In this document: piece after piece, positions 18,615 to 40,482 of the stretch
Layout of the letters: every line of letters begins with the position of its first letter
Numbering within the stretch: position 1 is the stretch's first letter
Assembly: GCA_035533095.1 (NCBI GenBank)
Contig: DATLUM010000050.1
Coordinates: 62,001-126,000, forward strand
Length of the DNA stretch: 64,000 nucleotides
Direction of reading: 5' to 3'
From: Acidimicrobiales bacterium
GTDB lineage: Bacteria; Actinomycetota; Acidimicrobiia; Acidimicrobiales; Palsa-688
Program-made: the position numbers and the translations under genes
The notes under the pieces: model-generated
Told to the model about the DNA's origin: nothing
What the model saw: the letters and a program-made list of their open reading frames with translations, nothing else
Databases searched by the model: none

Positions 18615-18640
18615 GCGAGAGAGTGATCTCTCATCTCGCG
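18615..18640. promoter_or_regulatory. Probable IclR-type operator between iclR and the dehydrogenase gene
   Basis: The segment contains GCGAGAG then GTGATCTCTCA and CTCGCG, giving an inner dyad GAGAG-TGAT-CTCTC and partial match to the island palindrome TGCGAGA-N5-TCTCGCA (the right half reads TCTCTCA). It lies 28 bases upstream of the iclR GTG. On the plus strand a TTGACA at 18669-18674 followed 18 bases later by AAAGAT could serve the dehydrogenase gene; TCTCGCGA lies within that spacer. Confidence 0.5.
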
Positions 18641-18729
18641 CCGACGTGGTCCCGTCGAGCCCGGCTCGTTGACACCCGCGCGTCTCGCGATGAAAGATGA
18701 CATCTACCAAATCGTAACGGGGAGGGCAC

Positions 18730-19812
18730 TTGCGCGCCACTGCTGCAGTACTGCGGGAACACGGCGGACTGCCGCAGCTCGAGGCAGTGGAGATCGGCGA
18801 GTTGAGCCCTGACGAGGTCCTGGTCGAGGTGGAGGCCGTCGGCGTCTGCCGCACCGACACCGAGTTCGGCCATTTCTGGCCGCTCCCGGCGGTGCTCGGT
18901 CACGAGGGCGTCGGCTCGGTGGCCGCTGCAGGCGACCGGGTCTCCTACGTGCGTCCCGGCGATCGGGTCCTGATGACCTTCAATCACTGCGGGGCGTGCA
19001 GGCCCTGCCTGGAAGGATCACCCGCTTACTGCAGACACTTCGACGCGCTCAACTTCTCCGGCGCAAGGCCGGACGGGACCAGCGCGATCCACGCCGGCGG
19101 AGAGGCGCTGCACGCGCATTTCCTCGGGCAGTCGTCGTTCGCCAGCCATGCGGTCGCCACGGAACGTTCCGTAGTGAAGGTCCCCGAAGGCATCCCCGCC
19201 GAGATCCTCGCCCCGTTCGGGTGTGGGTTCCAGACAGGAGCCGGGGCGGTGCTCAACGTTCTTCGTGTCGCGCCCGGCGACTCCCTCGCGGTCTTCGGCG
19301 CCGGCGCGGTGGGCCTGGCCGCGGTCGCGGCAGCCGCTGCCGCGGGCTGCGGGAACATAACCGTGGTCGACCTCGACCCGGCGCGGCTCGCCAAGGCGCG
19401 CCTGCTCGGGGCGCTCCACACGGTGGAGGCATCGACGCAGGACCTCGTAGCGGCCGTCCGCGAGGCCTGCCCCGACGGTTACGACGCCGCCCTCGACACC
19501 ACCGGCGTCCAAGCCGTCCTCCGGTCCGCTACGGAGGTGCTCACGACCCGCGGCACCTGCGCTGTGGTGGGGGTGGGCCCGAGCACCGAGATCTCCCTCG
19601 ATTGGCGGACGATGCTCAACGGCCGGACCCTTACGGGGGTGATCGCCGGCGGAAGCTTGCCGCGGGTCTTCCTGCCGAAGCTCGTCGACATGTACCTCGC
19701 GGGCAAGTTCCCTGTGGACCGGTTGATCGACGTCCAGCCGTTCGACGAGCTGCCCAAGGCCTTCGAGGCGAGCCGCTCGGGAGAGGTCGTGAAGGCCGTC
19801 GTCAAGCTGTAG
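18730..19812 (+). CDS. Zinc-dependent aryl-alcohol-type dehydrogenase (MDR family)
   Basis: A 360-residue medium-chain dehydrogenase. Catalytic zinc residues are in VGVCRTD and LGHEGVG; the structural zinc cysteines are in HCGACRPCLEGSPAYC; the NAD fold is VFGAGAVGLAAVAAAAAAG with Asp (VVDLDPARL) favouring NAD. The segment FGCGFQTGAGAVLNVL is typical of benzyl/aryl-alcohol dehydrogenases such as XylB and AreB. It would oxidise an aryl or allyl alcohol to an aldehyde. TTG start at 18730 has a GGGGAGGG site 5 bases upstream. It stands alone between iclR (divergent) and the Rieske/P450 unit. Confidence 0.85.
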   Translation: MRATAAVLREHGGLPQLEAVEIGELSPDEVLVEVEAVGVCRTDTEFGHFWPLPAVLGHEGVGSVAAAGDRVSYVRPGDRVLMTFNHCGACRPCLEGSPAYCRHFDALNFSGARPDGTSAIHAGGEALHAHFLGQSSFASHAVATERSVVKVPEGIPAEILAPFGCGFQTGAGAVLNVLRVAPGDSLAVFGAGAVGLAAVAAAAAAGCGNITVVDLDPARLAKARLLGALHTVEASTQDLVAAVREACPDGYDAALDTTGVQAVLRSATEVLTTRGTCAVVGVGPSTEISLDWRTMLNGRTLTGVIAGGSLPRVFLPKLVDMYLAGKFPVDRLIDVQPFDELPKAFEASRSGEVVKAVVKL

Positions 19813-19821
19813 CACCCGCCG

Positions 19822-19866
19822 TTGACCCGCCAGGGGGTCAGAGGTATCGTGAGACGGCGTCCCACT
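19822..19866 (+). promoter_or_regulatory. Promoter and overlapping operator for the Rieske-P450 unit
   Basis: TTGACC (19822-19827), a 17-base spacer and TATCGT (19845-19850) form a good sigma-70-type promoter. The palindrome CGTGAGA-CGGCG-TCCCACT (19848-19866) overlaps the -10 box and start region; it has the same 7-5-7 layout as the operator at 40460-40478 and shares the core AGACGGCGTC with the site at 40362-40380. The position suits a repressor. Sequence seen directly; function inferred. Confidence 0.6.
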
Positions 19867-19897
19867 ATGAGGGACAGATCGAAGGTGGCAAGACCAA

Positions 19898-20893
19898 TTG
19901 AGCGAGCTGACTCGGACCTTCGCCTCTCACCCGGCGCTGCGACGTTACTGGTACCCGGTGGTACGGACCTTCGATCTGACCGAGACACCGCTCGCTGCGA
20001 CGCTGCTCACGGTCCCGATCGTCGTCTGGCGAGCTGACGGAGGCCGGGTGTGCGCCGCTCTCGACCGCTGCCCGCACCGGGAAGCTCCGCTATCGGACGG
20101 GCGCGTCGTGGCGGGCTGCTTGGAGTGCCCCTATCACGGCTGGAGCTATGACGGCGACGGCCGCTGCGTGCTGGTGCCATCGTCGGGGCCCGGTGCTGCG
20201 ATCCCGCCGCGGGCGCACCTGGAGACGGTCCGTGCGGTAGAGCGCTACGGGCACGTCTGGATCTGCTTGGAGGATCCGGTCTCCGGGATCCCCGAGATCG
20301 CCGAGGACTCCAACCCCGAGTTCCGCCTGGTCGCGTCGCCGGTCGAGCGCTGGCGGGCTTCCACTACACGCATGGTCGACAACTTCCTCGACATCTCGCA
20401 CTTCCCCTACGTCCACCAGGGAACGTTCGGCGCAGGTGCCGAGCGCGAGGTCGGCAAGGTGGAGATGGAGGACCTGGGGGACTTCTTCGGCTACCGGTAT
20501 TCCGTGGTTGCCGCCAACACGATGTCAGGGGCCGCTTCGAGTGGCCAGACCGCTGTGAGGATCGGCCGGAGCATGAGCACGGGCTTCAGCCTCCCCTTCG
20601 GAGTCCGCAGCACGATCGACTACGAGACTGGACTGCGCCACGTGATGCTCATGGTGTCCGTCCCCATCGACGACGACGAGTCCTATTTCGCGTTCATGTC
20701 CTGGCGCAACGACGACTTCAGCGTGCCGTCAGAGGAGGTGAACCGGTTCGACCGCCAGATCGGCGAGGAGGACCGCAGGATGCTGGAGAGCATCCACGGG
20801 AGCTTGCCGTTGGAGGCGACGGGTACCGTCAGCGTTCAGTCCGACAAGGCGTCGGTCGAGTGGCGCCGTCAACTGAGGGAACTCCTGAGCTGA
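19898..20893 (+). CDS. Rieske non-haem iron oxygenase of the vanillate O-demethylase/NdmA-like group
   Basis: A 331-residue oxygenase component. The Rieske centre is C58-P-H60 ... C77-P-Y-H80 (CPHREAPLSDGR; ECPYHGW). The mononuclear iron site is in MVDNFLDISHFPYVHQGTFG (His168, His173). The fold matches single-subunit Rieske oxygenases that remove O- or N-methyl groups or hydroxylate (vanillate demethylase VanA, caffeine demethylases NdmA/B, PobA type), rather than alpha-beta dioxygenases. It needs an external reductase; none is encoded in the window. Start TTG 19898 with GAAGGTGG upstream is inferred. It is followed 5 bases later by the P450 gene. Confidence 0.85.
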   Translation: MSELTRTFASHPALRRYWYPVVRTFDLTETPLAATLLTVPIVVWRADGGRVCAALDRCPHREAPLSDGRVVAGCLECPYHGWSYDGDGRCVLVPSSGPGAAIPPRAHLETVRAVERYGHVWICLEDPVSGIPEIAEDSNPEFRLVASPVERWRASTTRMVDNFLDISHFPYVHQGTFGAGAEREVGKVEMEDLGDFFGYRYSVVAANTMSGAASSGQTAVRIGRSMSTGFSLPFGVRSTIDYETGLRHVMLMVSVPIDDDESYFAFMSWRNDDFSVPSEEVNRFDRQIGEEDRRMLESIHGSLPLEATGTVSVQSDKASVEWRRQLRELLS

Positions 20894-20898
20894 CCAGC

Positions 20899-22158: not shown

Positions 22159-22188
22159 AGGAGTGCGTTGGGGTGGCCCGGCTCACAT

Positions 22189-22240
22189 CGAGAGATGCTG
22201 TCTCGCAAAGCTTGACACCCCTGGGGGCCACCGCTAGGGT
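22189..22240 (+). promoter_or_regulatory. Promoter and upstream operator of the BMP transporter operon
   Basis: TTGACA (22212-22217), exactly 17 bases, then TAGGGT (22235-22240): a near-consensus housekeeping promoter. Immediately upstream, 22189-22207 reads CGAGAGA-TGCTG-TCTCGCA, a 7-5-7 palindrome variant of the island operator with its right half identical to the perfect site at 40472-40478. It ends 4 bases before the -35 box, a position that would suit an activator or a repressor that blocks polymerase binding. Confidence 0.7.
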
Positions 22241-22318: not shown

Positions 22319-23527
22319 GTGAACGCACCGCCATCGGCCCGGCAGGGGGCCATCGACACGGCCAGTTCGAAGCCCTTCGGCTCACGAAGGACCAAGGCGA
22401 TGGGCGCCGCTCTCGCCGCCTGTGCCCTCGTAGCCGGAGCCTGCGGCAGCAGCACCAAGGCTGGAACCTCCTCGACGACGGCTAGCTCCACAACCGGCGC
22501 TTCGAGCAACGGTCCGTGGGGCTGGCCGGGCAACTCCACCCAGGGCTGGCTGGCCCCCGGGGAACCCGACGTCAACCACGACGGCAAGGTCGTCATCGGG
22601 GTGATCAGCCCCGGCGACACCCACGACCACGGGTACTACGAGAGCTTCGTCGACGAAGCAAACGCTTTCGCCAAGCAGCAGGGCTGGACGGTCATCACCG
22701 TCGACAAGGTGCCCGACTCCAACGCCGCACAGGCAGCGCGCAACATGTGCCAGCAGCACCCGGACATGGTGGCTATCGCGGCCAGCGAGCTCAAGGACGC
22801 GATACCTGTCGCTTCCGAGGCGGTGTGCAAGGACACTGTTTGGTACGTCGCCGGCGGCCAGGGAGTCAACCAGACGCCGTACTTCGTCCAGACCAATGAC
22901 ATCGAGAGCCAGGACGGCTACGCCGCCGGCGTCGCAGCGGGTCTGCTCATGAAGGCCAAGGGCACCACCAAGGCCGGATTCCTCACCGGCCCGCAGGCGA
23001 GCTTCACGACCGACTTCGAGAAGGCCTGGGAAGCCGGCATCAAGTCCCAGGTTCCCAACGAGACGACGGTCGTCACCTACACCGGCGACTTCAACGACTC
23101 GGCTAAGGCGGTCGAAGCCTTCCAGGCGATGAAGTCGCAGGGTGTCGGGATCGTCTACCCCTATTTGGGCGGCGCGACGTTCGCTGTAGCGGCGCAGGCC
23201 AACCAGGCGAACATCCCCGTGCTGACCCCTGGAACCGACAACTGCTCGGTTCCCAGCCCGAAGTTCGCCATCTCGGTGATCTTCAGCCCCGGTGACTACT
23301 TCGCCGCCGCCCTCACCCCGTTCAAGGATGGGAAGCTGAGGGTCGGAACCGCCCTGGTGTTCCACATGGGCGTCGACCCGGTCCCGACCGTGAAGATCTG
23401 CAGCCCGACCGGCGACCAGGCCCAGGTGCTGGCTCAGACGATCCATGAGATCGGCACGGGCCAGATCCGCACGGATCAGATCACCGGTCTCAACGATTAC
23501 AGCGGCTACGTGCCGTCCGGTTCCTAA
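22319..23527 (+). CDS. BMP/PnrA-family substrate-binding lipoprotein of an ABC importer
   Basis: About 402 residues. A basic start (GSRRTKAMG), hydrophobic segment and Cys in LVAGACGSS mark a lipoprotein signal, followed by a Ser/Thr linker. The rest is a periplasmic-binding fold of the BMP family (PF02608): VVIGVISPGDTHDHGYYESF, VTVDKVPDSNAAQAARNM-like region, GYAAGVAAGLLMKAKGTT, GFLTGPQ, GVGIVYPYLGGAT. Known members bind purine nucleosides (PnrA, BmpA), guanosine or riboflavin (RfuA); the ligand here is unknown but is likely nucleoside- or N-heterocycle-like. GTG 22319 has a GGGGGAG ribosome site. Confidence 0.9.
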   Translation: MNAPPSARQGAIDTASSKPFGSRRTKAMGAALAACALVAGACGSSTKAGTSSTTASSTTGASSNGPWGWPGNSTQGWLAPGEPDVNHDGKVVIGVISPGDTHDHGYYESFVDEANAFAKQQGWTVITVDKVPDSNAAQAARNMCQQHPDMVAIAASELKDAIPVASEAVCKDTVWYVAGGQGVNQTPYFVQTNDIESQDGYAAGVAAGLLMKAKGTTKAGFLTGPQASFTTDFEKAWEAGIKSQVPNETTVVTYTGDFNDSAKAVEAFQAMKSQGVGIVYPYLGGATFAVAAQANQANIPVLTPGTDNCSVPSPKFAISVIFSPGDYFAAALTPFKDGKLRVGTALVFHMGVDPVPTVKICSPTGDQAQVLAQTIHEIGTGQIRTDQITGLNDYSGYVPSGS

Positions 23528-23551
23528 ACAGATCCGGAGAGCCAGGAAGTA

Positions 23552-25183
23552 ATGGAAGCAGGACAGCGGCCGGAGGAGCCTCGCTCCTCGGCCGCTCCCG
23601 CGCTCGAAGCGCGCTCGCTCACCAAGCGATATGGCGCAGTCCTCGCCTGCGATTCGGTCGATCTGAGCGTCCGCCGGGGCGAGATCCACGCGATCCTCGG
23701 CCAGAACGGCGCCGGCAAGACGACGCTGATGAACATGTTCCTCGGCCTGGCGCGCCCGGACTCGGGAGAGATCTTCCTGCACGGCCGCGCGGTGTCGATC
23801 GCCGACCCCGCCCGGGCTGCGTCCCTCGGGCTCGCGATGGTCCACCAGCATTTCAGCCTCGTTGGCCCGCTGCCCGTGTGGGAGAACCTCACGCTCGGCG
23901 AGGCGGGCAGGATCGACAAGCGACGGACGGTCACGCGCATCCGCGAGGTCGCCAGCCGGTACACCCTGGACGTCGATCCCCTGGCCGTCGTCGACGATCT
24001 CACGACGGGCCAGCGGCAGAGGGTCGAGATCGTCAAGTGCCTCATGAAGGACCCCGAGGTGTTCATCCTCGACGAGCCGACGTCCGTCCTGACCGCGCGT
24101 GAGTCGATCGAGCTTTTCCGGGTGCTGCGCCAGGTTGTCCGGCAGGAGGAGCGGGCCGTCATATTGATCAGCCACAAGCTGGACGAGGTCTTGCATGCGA
24201 CCGACCGCGTGTCGATCATGCGCCAAGGTCGCCTTGTTGCCGAAAGACCCACCAGCGGGATGAGCGCGCAGGAACTGGCGAGACAGATGATCGGCCACGA
24301 TGTGTCTCTGCGTCAGGTGGCGACGGCCGTCGGTCATCTCCAGGTGCAGCCCACCGAGGACTCCGACGCCACGGGCCCGGGCGCGTCCGCGCCTGGTGGT
24401 ACCACAGAGCAGACCACCGCTGGACCGCCCGAGCGATCCGAGATCGCGCTATCGATCCGTGATGCGACGGCCCGAGGTCTCGACGGCCGCTTGCTGCTCG
24501 ACGGGTTGTCGCTCGAGGTCCGGCGGGGAGAGATCCTGGGGCTCGCCGGAGTCGAAGGCAACGGCCAGAAGGCGCTCGGGGACCTACTGTCCAGCGTCCT
24601 CACCTTGGACTCGGGCAGCGTCGAGGTTGGCGGCAAGAGTGTCGACCTGAAGCAGCCGGGATCCATGGGTCGCTCAGGTGTGGGGGTCATACCCGAGGAT
24701 CGCCGGCAGTCCGGTTGTGTCCTCGACATGTCCGTGGCGGAGAACCTCATGCTGTGCGACTTCGCCTCGGTGAGCTCACGAGGTTTCGTCAACCACCGCC
24801 GGATGCTCAAAGAAGCGGCCCGACTTGTGACCGACTTCGACATCGTCGCTCCGTTGCTGGACGCGCCCCTGCGATCGCTGTCGGGCGGAAACCAGCAGCG
24901 GGTCGTGCTCGCACGCGAATTGTCGCGCTCGCCCGACGTGCTCGTGGCGGCCCAACCCACCTTCGGCCTGGATGTGGCAGCCGTCGAGTACATGGGCAAG
25001 CGCTTGCGCGAAGCGGCGAGATCAGGCGTGGCAGTCCTTCTCATCTCGACCGAGTTGGAGGAGATCCTCGATCTCGCCGACCGGATCGCGGTCATCCACC
25101 GCGGGAAGATCGTCGGTGAGATGTCGAGGCGCGAGGCGGACCTGGAGAGAATCGGGATGATGATGGGCGGCCAGGCCGCATGA
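23552..25183 (+). CDS. ABC importer ATPase with two nucleotide-binding domains (nucleoside/sugar type)
   Basis: A 543-residue duplicated ATPase. Domain 1: Walker A LGQNGAGKTT, signature-like LTTGQRQRVEI, Walker B VFILDEPTSVLT, switch His in ISHKLDEV. Domain 2 (from about residue 290): degenerate Walker A GVEGNGQKAL, good signature LSGGNQQRVVLARE, and AAQPTFGLDVAA in place of Walker B. One competent and one degenerate site is usual for this YufO/NupA and RbsA class. A ~40-residue Gly/Thr-rich linker joins the domains. Starts 24 bases after the lipoprotein gene and overlaps the next gene by 4 bases (ATGA). Confidence 0.93.
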   Translation: MEAGQRPEEPRSSAAPALEARSLTKRYGAVLACDSVDLSVRRGEIHAILGQNGAGKTTLMNMFLGLARPDSGEIFLHGRAVSIADPARAASLGLAMVHQHFSLVGPLPVWENLTLGEAGRIDKRRTVTRIREVASRYTLDVDPLAVVDDLTTGQRQRVEIVKCLMKDPEVFILDEPTSVLTARESIELFRVLRQVVRQEERAVILISHKLDEVLHATDRVSIMRQGRLVAERPTSGMSAQELARQMIGHDVSLRQVATAVGHLQVQPTEDSDATGPGASAPGGTTEQTTAGPPERSEIALSIRDATARGLDGRLLLDGLSLEVRRGEILGLAGVEGNGQKALGDLLSSVLTLDSGSVEVGGKSVDLKQPGSMGRSGVGVIPEDRRQSGCVLDMSVAENLMLCDFASVSSRGFVNHRRMLKEAARLVTDFDIVAPLLDAPLRSLSGGNQQRVVLARELSRSPDVLVAAQPTFGLDVAAVEYMGKRLREAARSGVAVLLISTELEEILDLADRIAVIHRGKIVGEMSRREADLERIGMMMGGQAA

Positions 25184-26349
25184 GTACCGTGCTCCCCGCG
25201 CCAAGGGCGACCGCTCCAGCTGGAGCCGCCGGCGACGGCTCGGGCGTACAGCCGCGCGGGCAGTGGTGGACCTCCCCGCGATTCAAGACGATTCTTCTCT
25301 ACGTCGTGTCGATCGCGGTGGGCTTCGGTCTTTCCGCTGTGCTGGTGGCGGTCACGCACGGCTCGCCGTCCAAGGTCTTCACTGCGATGTTCGACGGCAG
25401 CGTCCGGAGTTGGGGCTCACTCGGGTACACGCTCGACAACATGGCCCCGTTGCTCATCGTGGCGGCGGGGACCATCGTGACGGTCAGGGCGGGCTTCTTC
25501 AACATCGGTCAGGAGGGCCAGCTCACCATCGGTGCCATGTGTGCCGCGTTCGTGGCGCTGAAGGTGCACCCGTCGGGACCATTGGTGCTGATCCTCGCCC
25601 TGCTGGCCGGAACCGCCGGCGGTGCGATCTGGGCGGGCATCGTCGCCTTGCTGAAGTTCTGGCGCGGGGTCGACGTGGTGATCAGCTCTTTGCTGCTCAT
25701 CTTCGTCGCGGGGCAGCTTCTGTCGTACGCGTTGAGCTCTCCGACGTTCCTTCAGGAGCACGGCTCGGGTGGAGCGACGCTGACCGAGTCGGACCAGCTC
25801 TCCTCCAAGGTGCAGCTACCCCACATCGGCCAGTACCCGAACTTCAACTTCGGCACCGGGCTGATCATCGCCGTGGCCGTCGCAGTGCTCCTCGGGACCA
25901 TCGCCACGCGCACGACCTGGGGCTACAGGCTGAAGGTGCTCGGCTTCAACCCGGTCGTCGCCCGCCGCATCGGGGTGAGCGCGGTCTTGTTCGGTGGTGC
26001 CGCGATCGTCATATCGGGAGCGTGCGCCGGTCTCGCCGGCTCGATCATGCTCACGGGGCAGGCGTACCGGATCACTCCTACCTTCTCGAACAACTTCGGG
26101 TGGAACGGCCTGCTCGTGGCTCTGGTCGCGAGGAACCGGCCGGCTGTGGCCGTCCCCGTCGCGTTCCTCTTCGGAGCCCTCCAGGCCGGCGGTGGGTTCC
26201 TCGAGACGACAGGGGTGCCGACCGACCTGGTGAACATCGTCGAGGCGCTGCTGGTGCTGGCGGCGGTGTTCCCTCCGGCGTTGATGGCTCTGAGGCGCTA
26301 CCGGCTCAAGCGCTCCGAGCAGGCGGTTGCTGCGGCGGAGGCGTCATGA
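25180..26349 (+). CDS. BMP-type ABC importer permease 1
   Basis: A 389-residue multi-spanning protein of the BPD_transp_2 family (YufP/NupB type). It has a hydrophilic start, then about 8-10 membrane segments (FKTILLYVVSIAVGFGLSAV; NMAPLLIVAAGTIVTVRAG; PLVLILALLAGTAGGAIWAG; VVISSLLLIFVAGQLLSYAL). The conserved FFNIGQEGQLTIGAM motif and the cytoplasmic GYRLKVLGFNPVVARRIGVS coupling loop are clear. It pairs with the next gene as a heterodimer. Overlaps both neighbours by 4 bases. Confidence 0.92.
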   Translation: MSTVLPAPRATAPAGAAGDGSGVQPRGQWWTSPRFKTILLYVVSIAVGFGLSAVLVAVTHGSPSKVFTAMFDGSVRSWGSLGYTLDNMAPLLIVAAGTIVTVRAGFFNIGQEGQLTIGAMCAAFVALKVHPSGPLVLILALLAGTAGGAIWAGIVALLKFWRGVDVVISSLLLIFVAGQLLSYALSSPTFLQEHGSGGATLTESDQLSSKVQLPHIGQYPNFNFGTGLIIAVAVAVLLGTIATRTTWGYRLKVLGFNPVVARRIGVSAVLFGGAAIVISGACAGLAGSIMLTGQAYRITPTFSNNFGWNGLLVALVARNRPAVAVPVAFLFGALQAGGGFLETTGVPTDLVNIVEALLVLAAVFPPALMALRRYRLKRSEQAVAAAEAS

Positions 26350-27254
26350 ACCACGACATCACCACCATCCTGGCGAGCGCGATGCGCCTCACCGCGCCGC
26401 TGCTGTTCGCCGGCCTCGGCGAGTACATAGCCGAGCGCGCCGGCACGCTGAACATTTCAGTGGAGGCGATGATGCTGTCAGGCGCCTACGGCGGCGCAGT
26501 CGGCTCTTCGGTGTGCCACAGCGCCGCGATCGGCCTCCTCTGGGGAATCGGCGCGGGCCTGCTGGTCGGAATAATCCACGGCCAGTTCAGTCACCGCCTG
26601 CAGGCCAACACCTTCGTCGTCGGCCTGACCCTCAACGTGCTGGCTCTCGGCATAACCAACTATCTGCTCGAGAAGATCCAGATGACTCCCCGGCAGGTGG
26701 GCATCCTCACCATCCCGGGGCTGTCTCGCATACCGATCATCGGCAAGCCGCTCTTCTCGGAACGCTGGCCGTTCTTCCTCCTGTACGGCCTGGTCCCGCT
26801 GGTCTGGTGGGTGGTGCAGCGCAGCAGGTGGGGACTCGAGATGAGGGTGGTGGGCGAAAATCCCAAGGCCGCGGACGTGACCGGGATCCACGTGAACCGC
26901 AGGCGCCGGCAGGGCCTCGTGATCTGCGGCCTGCTGGCCGGGCTCGGAGGCGCCTACCTCTCGGTGGGAGAAGTGGGCACGTTCAACAGCGACATGACCG
27001 CCGGGCGAGGCTTCATAGTCATAGCAGCGGTCATATTCGGAGGCTGGACCCTCCGCGGGTTGGCAGCAGGGTGCTTCATCTTCGGAGGTGTCGACGCGCT
27101 GCGACTCGCGCTGCCGGCGCTCGGCTACACGATCAACCCGCAGCTGCTCATCGCCTCGCCATACCTGCTCGCTCTCATCGCCATGTGCTTCTTCGCCAAG
27201 CGTCTCAGACAGCCGGCAGCACTCGGCCAGCCATTCGAGAGAGGAGCCGCGTGA
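26346..27254 (+). CDS. BMP-type ABC importer permease 2
   Basis: A 302-residue permease (YufQ/NupC type) with about 8 membrane segments. Typical motifs: ERAGTLNISVEAMMLSGA, HRLQANTFVVGLTLNVLALG, and the coupling loop GLEMRVVGENPKAADVTGIHV. Start ATG 26346 overlaps the previous stop (ATGA). With the two upstream genes it completes a full importer. The following gene overlaps it by 4 bases (GTGA), so import and the first metabolic enzymes are made together. Confidence 0.92.
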   Translation: MNHDITTILASAMRLTAPLLFAGLGEYIAERAGTLNISVEAMMLSGAYGGAVGSSVCHSAAIGLLWGIGAGLLVGIIHGQFSHRLQANTFVVGLTLNVLALGITNYLLEKIQMTPRQVGILTIPGLSRIPIIGKPLFSERWPFFLLYGLVPLVWWVVQRSRWGLEMRVVGENPKAADVTGIHVNRRRRQGLVICGLLAGLGGAYLSVGEVGTFNSDMTAGRGFIVIAAVIFGGWTLRGLAAGCFIFGGVDALRLALPALGYTINPQLLIASPYLLALIAMCFFAKRLRQPAALGQPFERGAA

Positions 27255-28282
27255 AAGCCGCCGTCCAGGTCGGCTTCGGCGGACTCGATCAACTCCAGGT
27301 CAAGGAAGTTCCCGATCCCCGGCCGGCCGCCGGTGAGGTGCTCGTCAGGGTTCGCGCGACCACGCTCAACCGCCTCGACGTGATTCAGCGCGAAGGGCCT
27401 GCGCTCCTGCCGCACTTCCAGCTTCCGCACATAGCCGGCATGGACGTCGTCGGAGAGGTGGCCGAGCTCGGGGACGGCGTCCGCTCGGTGAGCGAGGGCG
27501 ACCGTGTTCTCCTCAACCCGGCTCTCCATTGCGGGACCTGCGAATGGTGCGAGCGCGGCGAGGATCCGTTCTGCCCAGCGACGCGGGTGATCGGCGGCAA
27601 CCATCCGGGGGGCTACGCGGAGCTCTGTACCGTCCCCGCCAGCCACGTCCACCCGATCCCCGACCACGTGTCCTTCGAGGAAGCTGCGACAGTGCCGACG
27701 ATCTGGTCGACCGCCTGGCAGGCACTGGTGGTCCGCGGCCAGGTGCGCCCAGGCGAGTGGGTGTTGATACACGCCGCTGCGAGCGGGGTCAGCACAGCGG
27801 CGATCCAGCTTGCGAAGCGCGTCGGTGCCAAGGTGCTCGCGACCGCCGGGTCGGAGCGCAAGCTGGACCTGGCTCGCAAGCTCGGCGCAGACCTTGGTGT
27901 GAACAACCGCAGCGACGACTTCGTGAAGCACGCTCGTGAGGCCACCGGCGGGCGCGGCGTCGACGTGGTGTTCGACCATGTCGGCCCGGCGTTGTTCGGC
28001 CGGTCGCTGTTCGCCCTGAAACCAAGAGGGCGGCTGGTCTTCTGCGGGTCCACCACGGGCAGGGAGGCGGCGATCGATCTTCCCTACGCCTACCACTTCG
28101 GCATCAGCCTGCTCGGCGTGGAGCCTTATTCGTACACCGGATTTGCAGAGATGCTCGACTTCTACTGGGGAGAGAGGTTCGTAGCGGTGATAGACACCGA
28201 ATTCGGCCTCGACGAAGCAGCGCAGGCCCAGGCACGAATGGAATCCGGCGAGGCGATGGGCAAGATCCTCCTACGGCTGTGA
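27251..28282 (+). CDS. Zinc-containing quinone oxidoreductase/alcohol dehydrogenase-like MDR protein
   Basis: A 343-residue medium-chain oxidoreductase. N-terminal GroES-like fold with TTLNRLDVIQREG, GMDVVGEV and structural-zinc cysteines NPALHCGTCEWCERGEDPFC; cofactor fold VLIHAAASGVSTAAIQLAKR with a loop pattern suggesting NADP(H); family motif GGRGVDVVFDHVGPALF. It may reduce an enone/quinone or oxidise an alcohol. GTG 27251 overlaps the permease stop, and its own stop overlaps the methyltransferase start (GTGA), tying it to the imported compound. Confidence 0.85.
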   Translation: MKAAVQVGFGGLDQLQVKEVPDPRPAAGEVLVRVRATTLNRLDVIQREGPALLPHFQLPHIAGMDVVGEVAELGDGVRSVSEGDRVLLNPALHCGTCEWCERGEDPFCPATRVIGGNHPGGYAELCTVPASHVHPIPDHVSFEEAATVPTIWSTAWQALVVRGQVRPGEWVLIHAAASGVSTAAIQLAKRVGAKVLATAGSERKLDLARKLGADLGVNNRSDDFVKHAREATGGRGVDVVFDHVGPALFGRSLFALKPRGRLVFCGSTTGREAAIDLPYAYHFGISLLGVEPYSYTGFAEMLDFYWGERFVAVIDTEFGLDEAAQAQARMESGEAMGKILLRL

Positions 28283-30710: not shown

Positions 30711-30713
30711 GCC

Positions 30714-31689: not shown

Positions 31690-31702
31690 GTCTCTGCGAG
31701 AC
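31690..31702. promoter_or_regulatory. Possible half-operator between the VOC and aldo/keto reductase genes
   Basis: GTCTC-TGC-GAGAC is a short dyad; it contains CTCTGCGAGA, identical to the left arm of the perfect operator at 40456. No matching right arm at the standard N5 spacing is present, so this is weaker evidence than the other sites. No convincing promoter could be placed in 31627-31733. Confidence 0.4.
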
Positions 31703-31733
31703 TCCCCCATCATACGTCGGCTCGGAGGACGGG

Positions 31734-32786
31734 ATGCAATATCGCATTTTGGGACGGACCGGGATCAAGGTGAGCGTCTTGTGCCTGGGCACCATGATGT
31801 TCGGGGCTTGGGGGAAGACCACGCTCGAGGAGTGCCGCCGGATGCTCGACGCGGCCCTCGACGCGGGAGTCAACTTCGTCGATACCGCCGACGTCTACGC
31901 GTTCGGCGAGTCGGAACAGATCCTCGGGGAGATCCTGGGATCCCGCCGCGACGAAGTGGTCCTCGCGTCCAAGGTCAACAACGCCATGGGCCCGGGGCTC
32001 AACATGAGCGGTAACAGCCGGAGGTGGATCGTGCGGGAGGTCGAAGCGAGCTTGCGCCGGCTTCGGACCGACCATCTCGACCTCTACCAGCTTCACCGAC
32101 CCGATCCCGAGACGGACATATCCGAGTCGCTCGAGACCCTCGACGATCTCGTGCGGCAGGGCAAGGTGCTCGCTGTCGGGACTTCGACCTTCCCGGCGGA
32201 TCTCCTGGTCGAAGCGCAATGGGCCGCCGAGAAGAGACAGCTGGTGCGCCCCGCTACCGAGCAGCCGCCATATTCGATCTTCGCGAGAAGCATCGAGGCG
32301 GACGTGCTGCCCGCCTGCCAGCGGATGCAGCTCGGCGTGATGGTGTGGGCACCCCTCAACGGCGGCTGGCTCACAGGCAAGTACCGCCGCGGCGCCGAAC
32401 CCCCTCCCGGGTCGAGAGCGGCGAGGGAGCCCGATCACATCGACTACGGAAAGCCCGTCAGCGAACGCAAGCTCGAGCTCGCCGAGAGCCTTGCGAAGCT
32501 CGCGGAGCAGGCGGGTATGAGTCTTTCCCACATGGCCTTGGCGTTCACTCTGAACCATCCGGCTGTGACAGCTTCCATCATCGGCCCGCGCACGCTCGAC
32601 CAGCTCACCTCGCAGATCGCAGCCCCGGACATCACCCTCGATCCGGAGCTGCTCGATGCAATCGACGCGCTCGTACCCCCCGGCCACACGATCAACCCGG
32701 CGGACTCCGGCTGGCGACCGCCCGCCCTCGACGACGCTTCCCAGCGCCGCCGTCCGGGTGGCAGCGGGATGTCAGCGGGCGTCTAG
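31734..32786 (+). CDS. Aldo/keto reductase
   Basis: A 350-residue TIM-barrel NAD(P)H reductase. Tetrad residues: Asp and Tyr in FVDTADVYAFGESE, Lys in LASKVNN, His in DLYQLHRPDPETD. Cofactor phosphate region SIIGPRTLDQL near the C-terminus. It resembles the YajO/Tas-like or IolS-type group that reduces aldehydes and ketones. ATG 31734 was chosen because it begins the family N-terminus MQYRILGRTGIKVS; the ribosome site is CGGAGG. Its 3' end overlaps the convergent amidohydrolase gene by 15 bases. Confidence 0.9.
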   Translation: MQYRILGRTGIKVSVLCLGTMMFGAWGKTTLEECRRMLDAALDAGVNFVDTADVYAFGESEQILGEILGSRRDEVVLASKVNNAMGPGLNMSGNSRRWIVREVEASLRRLRTDHLDLYQLHRPDPETDISESLETLDDLVRQGKVLAVGTSTFPADLLVEAQWAAEKRQLVRPATEQPPYSIFARSIEADVLPACQRMQLGVMVWAPLNGGWLTGKYRRGAEPPPGSRAAREPDHIDYGKPVSERKLELAESLAKLAEQAGMSLSHMALAFTLNHPAVTASIIGPRTLDQLTSQIAAPDITLDPELLDAIDALVPPGHTINPADSGWRPPALDDASQRRRPGGSGMSAGV

Positions 32787-34118
32787 GTGGGGCCAGCGGT
32801 GCGGGATGGTGATGCCGGCCCTTTCGAGCAGGAACCGCCGCTGCTTCTCCGCTTCCACCAGAGCGGACTCCTCGTCCACCCCTAGACAGCGCCCGTGACG
32901 GACGATCATCTTGCCCGCGACCATCACGTCACGGACACAGCGCCCGTCGGCCGACCAGACGAGTTGTAAAGCGGTCTCGCCGCGGGGGCTGCAAGCCGCA
33001 CTGGTGGGTTCGAAGATGACGAGATCGGCCTGCTTGCCGGCCTCGAGGGAACCCACTATGTCGCCGAGCCCGACCGCCTCGGCCCCACGGCACGTGGCCA
33101 TCTCGAACCCGTCCGCCGCGCTGAACCAGGTCGGGTCCTCGCGTACGTCCTTCGCCAGTCCAACCGCAAGGGCGGCGGCTCTGAGGATGTCCGCCTGGTC
33201 ACCGGCATTGGAGGCGTCGCAGCCGAGAGCGATCCTGCCGCCTGACTTGAACAGCTCCGCGTGGCGCCCGTGCCCGGTCACGCCCTGCCCCAGCCGCAGG
33301 TAGGCCCACGGGCAGTAAGCGACCGCCGTCCCGGTCCGCAGGAGGGCCGCAACCTCTTCGTCGTCGATCCAGACGCCGTGTGCGATCAGTAGGTGCCGCC
33401 CGAGAACCCCGAGATGCTCCAGGTGCGTCACGGGCCGGCGCCCGTGCCGTTCGAGGTATATCTCAGGGTCCGACCGCGTCGGCGAGAGATGCATCGTCAT
33501 GTTCGTCTTGCGCTCTCTCGCGAGTTCCGCGGCTCCGGCAAGCAGTTCATCTGAAGCGAGGCTGTGCCCGACGAGCGTCACCCAACCGGCGACGGTCCCG
33601 CCAGGCGGAAACGCGTCGAGTACCTCCCTCTGCCGGGCGAGAACCTCTTCCACGGGCGCGCTGTAGGGAAGGCCGTCGACGTCCCACCCCCAGGTGCCAA
33701 TGGCACCGCGCACCCCGACCGCAGTCATCCCCGCCGCAGCGCGAACGGGGTGTGCGACGGTGCCGGCCTCGATCACGGTGGTGACGCCGTTTCGGGCACA
33801 TTCGGCTGCGACGAGGGTGGCCGAGAGCTCGTCGTCCTCGGGTCCGTGATGCCCGTGTATAGGGATCGACCACGAGAAGATCGACTCGCCCGGGGCGAGG
33901 TCGTCGGGGATGCAGCTGCGTAGCAGCGGGTCGCCCGTGTGGTGTTGATGGGCATTTATGAGCCCGGGAGTGACGACAGCCCCTCCAGCGTCGAGCTCGG
34001 CGACACCCGGCCACCGCCTTCGAAGCTCCGACGTGGAACCCACCTCGAGGATCGTCGACCCCGCGACGGCGACCGCACCGCCGCACAGAACGCGCCGGTC
34101 GCGGTCCATCGTCACCAC
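32772..34118 (-). CDS. Second TrzN/AtzA-like amidohydrolase
   Basis: A 448-residue homologue of the enzyme at 29322-30710 with the same plan: H57 and H59 (INAHQHHTGD), His in TMHLSPTRSD, His in LIAHGVWIDDEE, Asp in LGCDASNAGD, and GSLEAGKQADLVIF. The substrate pocket differs (GWDVDGLPYSAPVEEV against WIWDIPPEPEVY), suggesting a different leaving group or a later intermediate. GTG 34118 (or the adjacent GTG 34115) is the first normal start; homology begins about 8 codons earlier (PDLLVTGGD), where only CTG is available, so the true start is uncertain. Confidence 0.86.
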   Translation of the reverse strand: MVTMDRDRRVLCGGAVAVAGSTILEVGSTSELRRRWPGVAELDAGGAVVTPGLINAHQHHTGDPLLRSCIPDDLAPGESIFSWSIPIHGHHGPEDDELSATLVAAECARNGVTTVIEAGTVAHPVRAAAGMTAVGVRGAIGTWGWDVDGLPYSAPVEEVLARQREVLDAFPPGGTVAGWVTLVGHSLASDELLAGAAELARERKTNMTMHLSPTRSDPEIYLERHGRRPVTHLEHLGVLGRHLLIAHGVWIDDEEVAALLRTGTAVAYCPWAYLRLGQGVTGHGRHAELFKSGGRIALGCDASNAGDQADILRAAALAVGLAKDVREDPTWFSAADGFEMATCRGAEAVGLGDIVGSLEAGKQADLVIFEPTSAACSPRGETALQLVWSADGRCVRDVMVAGKMIVRHGRCLGVDEESALVEAEKQRRFLLERAGITIPHRWPHLDAR

Positions 34119-34163
34119 GTCGCCACCGGTGACGAGCAGGTCTGGGCTGCTGGGAAGGGCGTC

Positions 34164-34193
34164 TTGGATAGCGAGATGTTAGCTCGCTATGGT
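34164..34193. promoter_or_regulatory. Operator between promoter boxes of the ring-hydroxylating dioxygenase operon
   Basis: TTGGAT (34164-34169), an 18-base spacer and TATGGT (34188-34193) form a plus-strand promoter. Its whole spacer is the palindrome AGCGAGA-TGTTA-GCTCGCT (34170-34188); the perfect arms extend to ATAGCGAG ... CTCGCTAT with 7 bases between (34168-34190). This is the same GCGAG-N7-CTCGC core as at 40456-40482. A protein bound here would block polymerase. On the minus strand TAACAT (34183-34178) may be a -10 box for the amidohydrolase. Confidence 0.7.
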
Positions 34194-34256
34194 GGACCAA
34201 TCGGGTTTGCTGTAGCGTGACGCCATGAGCCGCGAGGTGGCGGCGGGGAGGCAGCC

Positions 34257-35594
34257 GTGACGATTGTGGACCGCGCGGGCGTGCGCGCGGGCGGACATTG
34301 GATCGAGGAGGACGCCGGCGAGCCGACCTTCCGGGTGCACCGCTCGGCGTTCCGATCGCAGGCCGTCTTCGACGCCGAGATGCAGCAGCTGTGGGGCCAC
34401 CAGTGGTTGTACCTGGCCCACCAGAGCGAGATCCCCGAGCGCGGGGACTACAAGACACGGATCGTCGGTGGTCGCGACCTCCTCGTCGTGCGCGACGAGC
34501 AGGGGGAGATCCGGGTGTACTTCAACAGCTGTCCTCATCGCGGAACGGTGCTGGCCCGCCAGTGCGAGGGCAACGCGCGGTATTTCAAGTGCTTCTACCA
34601 CGCCTGGTCGTTTTCGAACTCCGGGCAGCTGGTCTCCCTCCCCGACGAAGGGGCGTACCCACCGGGCGAGGCCTTCAAGGCACGGTCGGGGCTGCGGACC
34701 GTCCCCCTGGTCGAGAACTTCCGCGGCTTCATCTTCGTCTGCTTCGACCCGGCCGCCGCACCGCTCGCCGACCACCTCGGGGTAGCCGGCGACTACATCG
34801 CGATGGTCGCCGAGCACTGCGCCGAAGGGATGGAAGTGCTGCCGGGAACGCAGCGCTACAGCGTCCGGGGTAACTGGAAGCTGGCCGTCGAGAACGCGAT
34901 GGACGGGTACCACTTCGGCCCCACCCATGCGACGTTCGTCGCCTGGCTGCGCGAGACGGGCTTCACCACTACAGACGAAGGGGGCAAGGCTGTCGTCCTC
35001 GGCGGCGGCCACAGCGTTCTCGTGCAATCAGGTCACTCGGGCCGCGTCGGGCTCCAGTGGGAGCCGCGCTTCGGCGATGAGGAAAGGGCTCGAACTGATA
35101 CCAACCGCCAGGAGCTGTTCGCCCGTGTCGGCGAGGAGCGCGGACGGCGCATCGCAGAGACGAGCCGGATCCTCTACGTCTTTCCCAACCTGCTGCTGTT
35201 CGACATCGAGGCCCTATCGATACGGCAGCTCGAACCGGTGTCACCGGGGCGTACCGACGTGCGCGCCTGGGAGCTCGCGCCTGTCGGCGAACCGGCATCG
35301 GCCCGGGAGCTCAGGCTGAAGATGCTGGTGTCGTTCGTCGGCCCTGGCGGCCTCGCGACACCTGACGACATCGAGGCCTACGAAGCCATACAGCGGGGCG
35401 TCGAAGCAACCGCCGGCGACGAGCGGCCCGGCGTCGACTGGAACGACATCTCCCGGGGCCTCGCCGACGAGCTCGCCGGTCTCCCCCATGACGAGATCCT
35501 CGGAGGCACGGTGTCGCGCTCGATCGATGAATCGGCCATCCGCAGCTTCTGGCGGCAATGGCATACCGCAGTGGGATCGGCGGTGGCGCGATGA
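34257..35594 (+). CDS. Aromatic-ring-hydroxylating dioxygenase, alpha (Rieske) subunit
   Basis: A 445-residue catalytic subunit. Rieske ligands C92, H94, C112 and H115 (SCPHRG; CFYHAW). The catalytic iron motif NWKLAVENAMDGYHFGPTH gives Asp216, His219 and His224. With the beta subunit next door it would form an alpha3-beta3 dioxygenase adding O2 to an aromatic ring; family members include biphenyl, naphthalene, benzoate and anthranilate-type enzymes. GTG 34257 has GGGGAGG 5 bases upstream. No ferredoxin or reductase is encoded in the window, so these must come from elsewhere. Confidence 0.9.
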   Translation: MTIVDRAGVRAGGHWIEEDAGEPTFRVHRSAFRSQAVFDAEMQQLWGHQWLYLAHQSEIPERGDYKTRIVGGRDLLVVRDEQGEIRVYFNSCPHRGTVLARQCEGNARYFKCFYHAWSFSNSGQLVSLPDEGAYPPGEAFKARSGLRTVPLVENFRGFIFVCFDPAAAPLADHLGVAGDYIAMVAEHCAEGMEVLPGTQRYSVRGNWKLAVENAMDGYHFGPTHATFVAWLRETGFTTTDEGGKAVVLGGGHSVLVQSGHSGRVGLQWEPRFGDEERARTDTNRQELFARVGEERGRRIAETSRILYVFPNLLLFDIEALSIRQLEPVSPGRTDVRAWELAPVGEPASARELRLKMLVSFVGPGGLATPDDIEAYEAIQRGVEATAGDERPGVDWNDISRGLADELAGLPHDEILGGTVSRSIDESAIRSFWRQWHTAVGSAVAR

Positions 35595-36091
35595 GCGCAA
35601 CAGGCATTGAGACGGCCCTCTCGCGACAACAGGCGGAAGAGTTCCTCTACAGCGAAGCGCTGATGCTGGACCAGTGGCTGCTCGACGACTGGCTCGGTCT
35701 TTTCCTCCCGGAAGGAACCTACGAGATCCCGACCCCCGACGCCGGCGATCTGCCCGCCACCGAGGCGCAGTATTTCATCGCCGATGACCACGAGCTGCTG
35801 AAAGTGCGCGTCCAGCGGTTGCAGAGCCGCAACGCCCACTCCGAGCAGCCCCGTTCGGTCACGCACCGCCAGATCACCAACATCCTCGTGTTCCCCGCCG
35901 GCGAAGGCTTCGCCAGGGTTCGGGCCTCCTTCACCGTCCACCGGGTCCGCGACCGCCACGTCGACCCCTACCTTGGTTGGTACGACCACCTGCTCGCACA
36001 CACCCCAGAAGGTCTGCGCTTCCGCCGCCGCCGTTCGCTGATCGCCGGAGACCAGCTCAAGCCGGGCAGCCGGTTGAGCTTCATACTTTGA
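35591..36091 (+). CDS. Aromatic-ring-hydroxylating dioxygenase, beta subunit
   Basis: A 166-residue NTF2-fold structural subunit: QQAEEFLYSEALMLDQWLLD, WLGLFLPEGTYEIPTP, RSVTHRQITNILVF and FRRRRSLIAGD are family features, ending in a short SRLSFIL. It stabilises the alpha trimer. ATG 35591 overlaps the alpha stop (ATGA), as usual for these pairs. The extradiol dioxygenase starts 11 bases later. Confidence 0.9.
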   Translation: MSATGIETALSRQQAEEFLYSEALMLDQWLLDDWLGLFLPEGTYEIPTPDAGDLPATEAQYFIADDHELLKVRVQRLQSRNAHSEQPRSVTHRQITNILVFPAGEGFARVRASFTVHRVRDRHVDPYLGWYDHLLAHTPEGLRFRRRRSLIAGDQLKPGSRLSFIL

Positions 36092-36102
36092 AGGACGAAC
36101 CG

Positions 36103-37002
36103 ATGACGCCGAACATGCCCGATGCCACCCGGCCCAGAGGGCCTCACGGTCTTGCCTACGCCCGGATCCAGGTGCCCGACATCGACGCCTCGACCGCGTG
36201 GTACGAGTACCACGTGGGGCTCGCGCGGGCGGGCACCCACGGCGACAGCGTGTTCCTCCGCTTCGGGCGGCCGCACCACTGCCTCGAGCTCGTCCCGGCG
36301 CCCGGCAGGCACGAGGCATGGACGGCCGCCGCCGGCTTCACCGTCGAGAGCCCGGCTGTGCTTCATTCACTGCACGACCGGGTCACCGCCGCCGGCTGCC
36401 AGGTCGGGCCGATCGACGCATCGGTCAAAGGTCTGTGCAGCGAAGGCTTCGCCGTGACCGACCCCAACGGTTTCGTCGTCGAGCTGATGGTCGGGTTCGA
36501 GGAGTTCGCCGTTGCTCCCGACGTCGAGATGCCTCCCACCGATATCGTGCACCCGTTCCTCTCGACCGATCGCTTCGACGAGTCCCTGGAGTTCTACACG
36601 CGGGTGCTCGGGTTCCTCGCCTCCGATCACATCGTCGGATCGACGTCGTTTCTCCGGAGTGAGAATCGCTACCATCACAGCCTCGCCCTGCGTCGCGACA
36701 GCAAGTTCTTCGTTGCACACATCTGTTTCCTGATGGCCAACTTCGACGAGATGATGCGCCGGAGAGCGCGGGCGCTGTACAAGAAGGTCGATCTGCCCGC
36801 GGACATGATGAACCACTCAGCGTCGGGTTCGATTGCCACCTACCTCTTCGATCCCCGGCACGGCCCCCGCATCGAGTTGTGCGACGGGCACGTCGTGCTC
36901 GATCCCGTGCAGCACGAAACGCACGAGCCGCGCCGCATGACCCTCGACCCTCGCAACATCGACATCTGGCGGCCGGCGGCCGACGACTGGGCCGGCTTCT
37001 AG
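36103..37002 (+). CDS. Type I extradiol ring-cleavage dioxygenase (two-domain VOC, BphC-like)
   Basis: A 299-residue two-domain enzyme. The iron triad is placed as in BphC (His146, His210, Glu260): His150 (DIVHPFL), His206 (FVAHICF) and Glu258 (RIELCDGH), all in the C-terminal domain. The active-site His is in RYHHSLAL. This predicts Fe(II)-dependent meta cleavage of a catechol-like ring made after the upstream ring-hydroxylating dioxygenase. ATG 36103 has AAGGA 7 bases upstream. Interestingly no cis-diol dehydrogenase is obvious in this operon; the AKR or MDR proteins could fill in. Confidence 0.87.
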   Translation: MTPNMPDATRPRGPHGLAYARIQVPDIDASTAWYEYHVGLARAGTHGDSVFLRFGRPHHCLELVPAPGRHEAWTAAAGFTVESPAVLHSLHDRVTAAGCQVGPIDASVKGLCSEGFAVTDPNGFVVELMVGFEEFAVAPDVEMPPTDIVHPFLSTDRFDESLEFYTRVLGFLASDHIVGSTSFLRSENRYHHSLALRRDSKFFVAHICFLMANFDEMMRRRARALYKKVDLPADMMNHSASGSIATYLFDPRHGPRIELCDGHVVLDPVQHETHEPRRMTLDPRNIDIWRPAADDWAGF

Positions 37003-37006
37003 GCCC

Positions 37007-38230: not shown

Positions 38231-38538
38231 CCGGTCGGCGCAGAGCTGTCTTCGATGCTCGCGATGGCGCGCTCGTCGATCAGTGGCCTGAACTTCTCGG
38301 CGACGAACTGTTCGTGCTCCGCGCTCGACAGGTATGAGTCGAGCTCGGACCAGGTCTGGAACTCGACGGTCATTGCATGGGTGAACCGGTCGTCTCGTTT
38401 GCTTGCGTTGCGGCCCAACGCGAAGTTTCTCATCGCGTGGAAGCGCAGGGGGAAACCGGCAAGCTCCGAGAGCATCGCGTCGCACGACTCGGGATCCACG
38501 TCCGCCTTCAAGCGGAACATCAACATGTGCCGGATCAC
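38227..38538 (-). CDS. Dabb (stress-responsive alpha/beta barrel) domain protein
   Basis: A 103-residue ferredoxin-like barrel protein: IRHMLMFRLKADVDPE, RNFALGRNASKRDDRFTHAM, FQTWSELDSYLSSAEHEQFV and LIDERAIASIED. Dimeric Dabb proteins include decarboxylase- and cyclase-like enzymes and binding proteins. GTG 38538 overlaps the HD-protein stop by 4 bases (GTGA), so the two are functionally linked. Reaction unknown. Confidence 0.8.
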   Translation of the reverse strand: MIRHMLMFRLKADVDPESCDAMLSELAGFPLRFHAMRNFALGRNASKRDDRFTHAMTVEFQTWSELDSYLSSAEHEQFVAEKFRPLIDERAIASIEDSSAPTG

Positions 38539-39149: not shown

Positions 39150-39162
39150 TGCGATTCTCCTG

Positions 39163-40326
39163 TCAGACGTCTCCGGCGAAGCGGTCGGCGAGCCCCGAGC
39201 GGTGACCTGCGACGCGTTCACCGGGTTGCCGGAACGGGTGTGCTGCGGCGGCCTGCTCGTCGAGGACAACACCGATGCCGGGTAGGTCCGGGACTGGCAG
39301 CTTGCCGCCCTCGATCCTGTCGACGCCGAGCTTTGATCCGGGTGCCAGCATCTCCCAGAAGGGCGCCTGGTCGAACGGGTACTCGACGAGGCGAATCCTC
39401 GATGACGAAGCAGCCAGGTGTAGGTTGGCTGCCACGGCGAGCGGTCCGGCGCAGATGTGAGGCACGACCATGACCGCGAACTGGCCGGCCGCCGTGACCA
39501 TCGCCCGGGCCGCGATGATCCCGCAGGTCGTAGCGTCGGGCTGCAGGACCGATATGCGGCACCGTTGCAGCATCTCGAGAGCCTGACCCGCCGTGAACAG
39601 GTGCTCGCCGTACGCGAGCGGCACCGTGCACGCGGACGCCAGCCGCTCGATGCCCGCCGGCGCTTCCTGGACAAGCGGCTCCTCGAACCATCCCACGTCC
39701 AACTGCTTCAGATTGTGCGCTATTTGCACGGCTGTCGGTTCGGTGAAGGTCTCGCTGCCGTCGACCATGATCTCGACATCGGTTCCCAGTCGCCGGCGGA
39801 GTTCTCGGAGCTTCTCGAGGTCGTCGCGCCACGAAGGCCCTATGCGGACCTTTACCCGCGCCACGCCCCGGTCGAGTAGCGGGAGCAGGCGCTGGACCTG
39901 CGCTTGTGCGTCGCACTCCTCCAGAAAGCCGGTCGAAGCGTAAACCTCGACGCTGTCGCGAACCCTGCCGAGCAACCCGCTGAGCGGCCGGGCGGCTTCC
40001 TGGGCGGCCAGGTCCCACATGGCTGTCTCAACGGCCGAGCGCGCCAGGGCCGTGACGCCCCCCAAGCCGAGCCGGCGCCGGGTGTGCGACTCCATGCGCG
40101 CCACGATCCGCTCCACCGAGTCGAGTTCTTCGCCGAGCACCAGGGGCGCGAAGGCCTGGAGGATCGTCTCGGCCACGACCCCGGCGTAGGTGCACCCGTA
40201 GCTGTCGCATGCCTCACCCCAGCCGACCAGGCCGGAGTCGGATGAGACGCGCACGAAGCAGTACGAGATCGGGCCGCGCTCGTCGTCGACCGTGACGGTT
40301 ACCGGCGTGACGTCGGTCAGCTTCAT
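39163..40326 (-). CDS. Enolase-superfamily enzyme (mandelate racemase/muconate lactonizing type)
   Basis: A 387-residue TIM-barrel protein with capping domain. Features: catalytic-strand motif VKVRIG (K-x-R), Mg ligands Asp in IMVDGSETF, Glu in WFEEPLVQE and Glu in AYGEHLFTAG, and a possible general-base His in VVPHICAGP, as in the mandelate racemase subgroup. Such enzymes racemise, dehydrate or cycloisomerise carboxylates by abstracting an alpha proton. ATG 40326 is the first gene of a minus operon with the HD and Dabb genes; an operator-like site is 36 bases upstream. Confidence 0.88.
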   Translation of the reverse strand: MKLTDVTPVTVTVDDERGPISYCFVRVSSDSGLVGWGEACDSYGCTYAGVVAETILQAFAPLVLGEELDSVERIVARMESHTRRRLGLGGVTALARSAVETAMWDLAAQEAARPLSGLLGRVRDSVEVYASTGFLEECDAQAQVQRLLPLLDRGVARVKVRIGPSWRDDLEKLRELRRRLGTDVEIMVDGSETFTEPTAVQIAHNLKQLDVGWFEEPLVQEAPAGIERLASACTVPLAYGEHLFTAGQALEMLQRCRISVLQPDATTCGIIAARAMVTAAGQFAVMVVPHICAGPLAVAANLHLAASSSRIRLVEYPFDQAPFWEMLAPGSKLGVDRIEGGKLPVPDLPGIGVVLDEQAAAAHPFRQPGERVAGHRSGLADRFAGDV

Positions 40327-40361
40327 CTCACCCCCACAAGCCCGGGAAGGGCGTCCTGCTC

Positions 40362-40380
40362 TGCAAGACGGCGTCTAGTG
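40362..40380. promoter_or_regulatory. Operator-like site upstream of the enolase-superfamily operon
   Basis: TGCAAGA-CGGCG-TCTAGTG is a degraded 7-5-7 copy of the island operator and is preceded by CTC as in the perfect site (CTCTGCAAGA). It shares AGACGGCGTC with the site at 19848-19866. It lies 36 bases before the ATG at 40326. TACGTT about 20 bases farther upstream on the minus strand could be a -10 box, but no good -35 partner is seen. Confidence 0.5.
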
Positions 40381-40455
40381 AAGCGTAACGTATGGTGGAT
40401 CGTGTCAGGGGCTTCCCTTCATCCTTGACAGACCGCTGCTCAGAGGGGCAGACTC

Positions 40456-40482
40456 GCTCTGCGAGAAACGATCTCGCAGAGC
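40456..40482. promoter_or_regulatory. Perfect 11-bp-arm operator upstream of the cupin operon
   Basis: The arms GCTCTGCGAGA and TCTCGCAGAGC are perfectly inverted around AACGA, the best copy of the island palindrome. TTGACA lies at 40425-40430 with a weak CAGACT 18 bases later, so the site would sit just downstream of that promoter, covering the transcript start, as expected for a repressor. Confidence 0.75.

Follow-up and report, generated by a model that had tools for sequence, protein, structure and literature searches.

Group-1 operators of the IclR family of regulators have been described as palindromes resembling GKTYCRYW3-4RYGRAMC, with tandem sites mainly 19–21 nt apart (PMC8222616). 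That paper reports three-box sites and tandem palindromes, and indicates that a regulator of this family usually controls its own gene and one or two neighboring operons. Here we describe a 64,000-nt stretch of an Acidimicrobiales genome (lineage Palsa-688; assembly GCA_035533095.1, contig DATLUM010000050.1, positions 62,001 to 126,000), referred to as the window, in which an island of putative import and breakdown genes carries a shared operator at seven places (Table 1; positions are counted from the first base of the window). It is highly likely from sequence comparison that these operators belong to one IclR-family regulator, the protein encoded at 17742–18587, and that the genes placed under it include those for both import and breakdown.

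The locus is like the described group-1 systems in its box sequence, in the alternating direction of the boxes, in palindromes 20 bp apart and in its catabolic context. It differs in its box letters (GTCTYGY versus GKTYCRY), in having four boxes per site at seven places of one island (the term "four boxes" is absent from that paper's text) and in size, a seven-operator island being set against the one or two adjacent operons reported. Other members of the family are comparable in part. PheR of Sphingobium is, by the title of its report, a repressor that jointly regulates how an aromatic compound is taken up and catabolised, and that report mentions IclR (PMC13273656); the bacterium, the substrate and the gene set are different, and the comparison is one of descriptions. 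NdgR/LtbR, which acts in amino acid biosynthesis in Actinobacteria, belongs to the IclR family, has an ATAHR helix and has a similar operator in genomes of the same family as ours, but it lies beside leuC, and in one such genome the ndgR-like protein shares ~30% identity with the island IclR. The best NCBIfam model for the island IclR is that of PcaR/PcaU/PobR (TIGR02431), regulators of aromatic catabolism. Its score of 92.3 bits, against a cut-off of 284.75, leaves the protein outside that subfamily. The kind of system is already known, and the island regulon would be a new example of it.

Literature searches gave no study that deals directly with an IclR regulon of this group of bacteria. 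The present analysis would give an operator and a list of targets to a regulator for which those searches returned no study, and would join transport and breakdown genes as one functional unit, by which the search for the substrate is narrowed. The four-box sites could also serve to probe the pairing of IclR dimers on DNA, a matter left to experiment in PMC8222616. More tentatively, the locus may stand apart as that of an IclR regulator whose four-box operator merges both reported arrangements (outer convergent pairs and an inner pair) in a symmetric 35-bp site, and whose regulon, with seven operators in a single island and one of these in a coding start, is unusually large; the conserved regulon would then outline an undescribed actinobacterial pathway for import and degradation of a heterocyclic or aromatic compound.

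A four-box operator at seven places in one island

The operator was learned from the loci of IclR orthologues in other genomes, among them four with 63–69% identity to the island protein, in Desertimonas flava and in three metagenome-assembled genomes (MAGs) of Acidimicrobiales/Acidimicrobiaceae. It spans ~35 bp and reads TCTYG-N5-CRAGA-N5-TCTYG-N5-CRAGA, the half-sites alternating at a 10-bp pitch; by eye, the dyad-symmetric consensus is GTCTYGYAWTGCRAGAY-GNC-RTCTYGYAWTGCRAGAC. Because the four boxes alternate at this pitch, two IclR dimers can bind side by side on the same face of the helix.

A symmetrised matrix of 41 columns was trained on the sites of the relatives only, with a peak threshold of 14. 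The training set comprised 22 gap-free sites scoring at least 25.7, out of 37 peaks in the relatives; the 15 lower peaks (11.9–24.1) were left out, and some of these again reached 14 in further scans. With this matrix the seven island places rank first in the window, six of them at 22.7–30.1 and one at 11.3. Outside the island the window has no peak of at least 14, and neither has a 400-kb background from the same genome, where the maximum is 11.2. The outcome that the initial annotation had named as refuting, matrix hits no rarer elsewhere than at island promoters, is thereby contradicted, with six peaks in the island and none in either of the other sets. Column-permuted matrices (n = 300) gave a mean of 0.05 island peaks and a maximum of one. 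A matrix built from the seven sites of the window alone found 22 peaks of at least 14 in the relatives and none in the background. When each of seven taxa was left out in turn, three to seven such peaks were recovered per taxon, versus zero or one in the 400-kb background. The centers of six of the seven sites are intergenic, though intergenic DNA makes up 898 of the 27,923 island bases by our gene list. Operator 7 is the only place in the genome within one mismatch of the four-box pattern; allowing three mismatches added to it one further place, probably by chance.

Table 1. Operators and genes of the island, with matrix scores for the operators
Feature	Position	Strand	Context or basis of assignment	Matrix score
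Operator 1	18683..18717		iclR/ADH divergent gap, 12 bp before ADH start	27.4
Operator 2 (weak)	19840..19874		before VanA-type Rieske/P450 genes; outer left box poor	11.3
Operator 3	22181..22215		before BMP-type ABC importer operon	30.1
Operator 4	31720..31754		over start and codons 1-7 of aldo-keto reductase gene	27.6
Operator 5	34162..34196		divergent gap, amidohydrolase (-) / Rieske dioxygenase alpha-beta (+)	24.2
Operator 6	40354..40388		upstream of enolase-superfamily gene (-)	22.7
Operator 7	40452..40486		at cupin-FAH-aldolase-amidohydrolase-TauD genes; most symmetrical	27.1
PfkB/ribokinase-like sugar kinase, overlapping iclR end	16819..17745	-	Pfam, NCBIfam	
IclR-family regulator, proposed operator binder	17742..18587	-	Pfam HTH_IclR, IclR_C	
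Zinc alcohol dehydrogenase (ADH1)	18730..19812	+	Pfam	
Rieske oxygenase, VanA_C type	19898..20893	+	Pfam	
Cytochrome P450	20860..22158	+	Pfam	
ABC importer: BMP/PnrA-type binding protein, double ATPase, permease	22319..26349	+	Pfam	
651-aa ORF: permease-like N-terminal part and quinone-oxidoreductase-like ADH	26327..28282	+	Pfam for ADH part	
O-methyltransferase-like protein, TRZ/ATZ-type amidohydrolase	28279..30710	+	Pfam	
Aldo-keto reductase	31734..32786	+	Pfam	
Amidohydrolase (deaminase-like)	32772..34118	-	Pfam, NCBIfam	
Rieske dioxygenase alpha and beta, extradiol-type dioxygenase	34257..37002	+	Pfam; NCBIfam below cut-offs	
Enolase-superfamily (MR/MLE) protein	39163..40326	-	Pfam	
Cupin, FAH-type hydrolase, HpcH aldolase, amidohydrolase, TauD dioxygenase	40540..44741	+	Pfam	

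The island had initially been read as sharing a shorter palindrome, about TGCGAGA-N5-TCTCGCA. All of the sequences quoted for it are present at their coordinates, and the sites are real as the longer ~35-bp operator. The bare 7-5-7 layout is found at chance frequency, both in the window (six matches with at most three mismatches, versus 5.95 expected) and across the genome (22 places with at most two mismatches, versus 18 with a reversed-pattern control). It was dropped as a motif and the four-box model was taken instead. The 27-bp palindrome with 11-bp arms at 40456–40482 is the sole place of this layout that is striking by itself. Among the seven places that had been listed, those at 22189, 34170, 40362 and 40456 are clear and correspond to operators 3, 5, 6 and 7 (22.7–30.1), and 19848–19866 corresponds to the weak operator 2. 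Two others were misplaced: at 18615–18640 the best matrix score is 0.6, and operator 1 takes its place; the half-site at 31692–31701 gives way to operator 4.

The operator and its setting are conserved. Searches of the order and of the phylum (E ≤ 1e-60) added two more genomes with the regulator, G331 (one of 396 other genomes) and G602 (one of 395); G331 is possibly not independent of the three MAGs. Many of the island genes have homologues in the relatives' loci, where the gene order is shuffled, and the motif recurs, in its longer form, in the gaps of these loci. An operator precedes ADH1 in four of the five relatives' loci that have this gene (L009, L010, L018 and L021), and the arrangement of operator 3 is repeated with the same geometry before an ABC ATPase gene in D. 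flava (L011 at 14631). Searched over whole genomes, D. flava (G777) has eight of its 10 places within 39 kb, three of these eight outside the trained stretch; G602 has six of seven inside 36 kb out of 7.0 Mb, and every one of these six falls in a trained stretch; G331 has four places, two of them outside trained stretches. New stretches near the training loci (56 kb) hold eight peaks of at least 14, five being the model hits that prompted the reading of these stretches and three being additional. Six of them stand immediately upstream of homologues of the locus genes, namely TauD/ALDH, P450 (two), Glyox1, cupin-FAH-amidohydrolase and RHO alpha. The seventh is 162 bp upstream of a weakly matching SDR homologue, and the eighth is at no recognised start. 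Relatives of the Rieske alpha gene in genomes without an IclR match had no site of at least 14 in any of three loci of ~4 kb each (L048–L050; best score 5.6), which is weak evidence since their identity is just 42–48%.

The IclR protein as the candidate regulator

Membership of the protein at 17742–18587 in the IclR family follows from scores of 43.6 bits for PF09339 and 50 bits for PF01614, both above the cut-offs. The letters of its recognition helix, S-K/R-ATAHRY, are retained in all eight IclR proteins aligned. G602 has two adjacent, differing IclR copies (L020:2125-2925 and L020:3011-3742), 51 and 52% identical to that of the window.

The published group-1 consensus, slid unfitted over 29 operators, gave two peaks, one at offset 2 (11.4 of 17 matches) and one at offset 22 (12.0 of 17), over a background of 6.6 (sd 1.9). 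This corresponds to a pair of IclR palindromes at a distance of 20 bp, the spacing reported for tandem IclR sites (PMC8222616); the fit is approximate, since by eye the third position and its mirror position mismatch. A double peak at this distance is as expected for two IclR dimers that would lie side by side. The sites occur together with iclR orthologues and sit at promoters of the island. An unplanned control points to an IclR protein as well: in five same-family genomes with no match to the island IclR at E ≤ 1e-20, the best hit of the operator model is in each case the leuC-ndgR promoter of another IclR protein. Apart from one sigma-like protein (L021), no other regulator was found among 20 of the 55 unassigned open reading frames (ORFs) of the relatives' loci, and the stretches scanned around the other seven of the genome's eight HTH_IclR matches hold no site of at least 14. 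The matrix results, the fit to the IclR consensus and the co-occurrence with iclR orthologues support the earlier proposal of one regulator, probably the adjacent IclR, over import and breakdown together.

Candidate promoters and competing readings

Candidate promoters were sought by loose criteria, and five operators are placed on or near them. Operator 1 overlaps the candidate −10 of the ADH gene (TTGACA-N18-AAAGAT, 18669–18698), and operator 2 another −10 (TTGACC-N17-TATCGT, 19822–19850). Operator 3 touches the 5′ edge of a candidate −35 (TTGACA-N17-TAGGGT, 22212–22240). Operator 5 covers a whole candidate promoter (TGGATA-N17-TATGGT, 34165–34193), and operator 7 begins within a candidate −10 (TTGACA-N18-CAGACT, 40425–40454) and extends into the transcript. 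Five of six codons checked under operator 4 are minor ones (ATT 0.03, CAA 0.11, TTG 0.11, GGA 0.13 and TAT 0.15 of synonymous use), the sixth, CGC, being used at 0.41; this suggests selection on the DNA. Since several operators lie over a start codon, over a start site or over a candidate −10, repression is the simplest reading and the likely mode. We picture the island IclR binding the seven operators as two dimers side by side at each, which would serve the ADH gene and divergent iclR, the Rieske/P450 genes, the importer operon, the aldo-keto reductase gene, the divergent amidohydrolase and Rieske dioxygenase genes, the enolase-superfamily gene and the cupin-to-TauD genes. That the compound brought in, or an intermediate of the pathway, relieves this repression is, judged from the sequence, fairly probable. 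At the importer, whose operator borders the −35 on its upstream side, activation would also be possible.

This last placement invites the reading that the island IclR is the regulator but mainly an activator, like PcaU: the operator lies just upstream of the −35 and touches it, the geometry in D. flava is identical, and the family includes activators and dual regulators, as stated in PMC8222616. The overlap of operators 1, 2, 5 and 7 with candidate −10 elements and of operator 4 with a start codon fits blocking, and we regard a mainly activating role as rather unlikely. A different protein could also be the binder, such as an NdgR/LtbR-like paralogue beside leuC, with the island IclR binding elsewhere. 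The model matches 20 of 31 same-family genomes at E ≤ 1, and in all five inspected, those with the best E-values among the 20, the best place is the divergent promoter between leuC and an ndgR-like IclR gene (L061:4970, L062:5797, L063:9677, L053:372 and L056:1498). The operator in these five promoters likewise has four boxes in the same arrangement, and the matches mean that the reach of the model extends to further IclR operators. The ndgR-like protein is, moreover, alone among the other seven IclR proteins of the genome in having the ATAHR recognition-helix letters of the island IclR. Yet the leuC-ndgR gap of this genome scores just 4.7, versus 22.7–30.1 at the six strong island sites, and in the relatives searched whole most places fall in islands that hold an iclR orthologue. 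This assignment is improbable. That the sites are chance palindromes in GC-rich, promoter-like DNA would agree with the frequency of the bare 7-5-7 motif; with a matrix trained on other genomes, nothing reaching 14 in the 400-kb background and the failure of permuted matrices, it is next to negligible, operator 2 excepted.

Several observations weigh against a regulon of the island IclR that is confined to the island and acts by repression. The weaker outer box matches at 2.4–2.5 of 5 positions, versus 0.92 in the background, and the fourth box is usually degenerate; it is real on average and often poor. A further place in the genome (L068) scores 11.9, above operator 2, which is consequently not distinct by score alone. 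The whole-genome search with a sequence-only model returned three of the seven known places, all in the island; it is lossy and may miss sites elsewhere, so that restriction to the island is drawn from the window, the 400 kb and further neighborhoods of the same genome. Three operator-like places in two relatives lie far from the islands (L064:7949, which is G602:C1:4391950, and C23:307771 and C33:37526 of G777). ADH1 of D. flava has no site directly before it. Some of the five same-family genomes inspected, out of the 20 with a model match, are incomplete, and a second place in one of the five, G024, is not at the leuC-ndgR promoter. The loose promoter criteria had no shuffle control; a stricter scan of the iclR-ADH gap (18560–18760) found no promoter, and even the loose criteria gave none for the iclR or amidohydrolase gene or, on its strand, for the enolase gene. 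The best score near the start of iclR, on its own side, is 0.6, and any autoregulation would therefore have to run via operator 1.

Island genes and possible substrate

The gene set (Table 1) looks like one that would take up an aromatic or nitrogen-heterocyclic compound and break down its ring. By gene content, the lumichrome cluster described in PMC12746152 has a xanthine oxidase and a thiamin-dependent enzyme that are not among the island genes scanned, which are part of the ORFs. It has in common with the island (16819–44741) a P450, amidases/amidohydrolases, Rieske alpha and beta subunits and an extradiol dioxygenase. The two parts of the 651-aa ORF align apart in D. flava (L011 17608–18498 for the N-terminal part, and 11089–12117), which would fit a fusion or an assembly error. 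The island lies between pnp and the ribF-truB-infB genes (13409–15958 and 44757–50390), a position that suggests its insertion into a neighborhood of translation genes.

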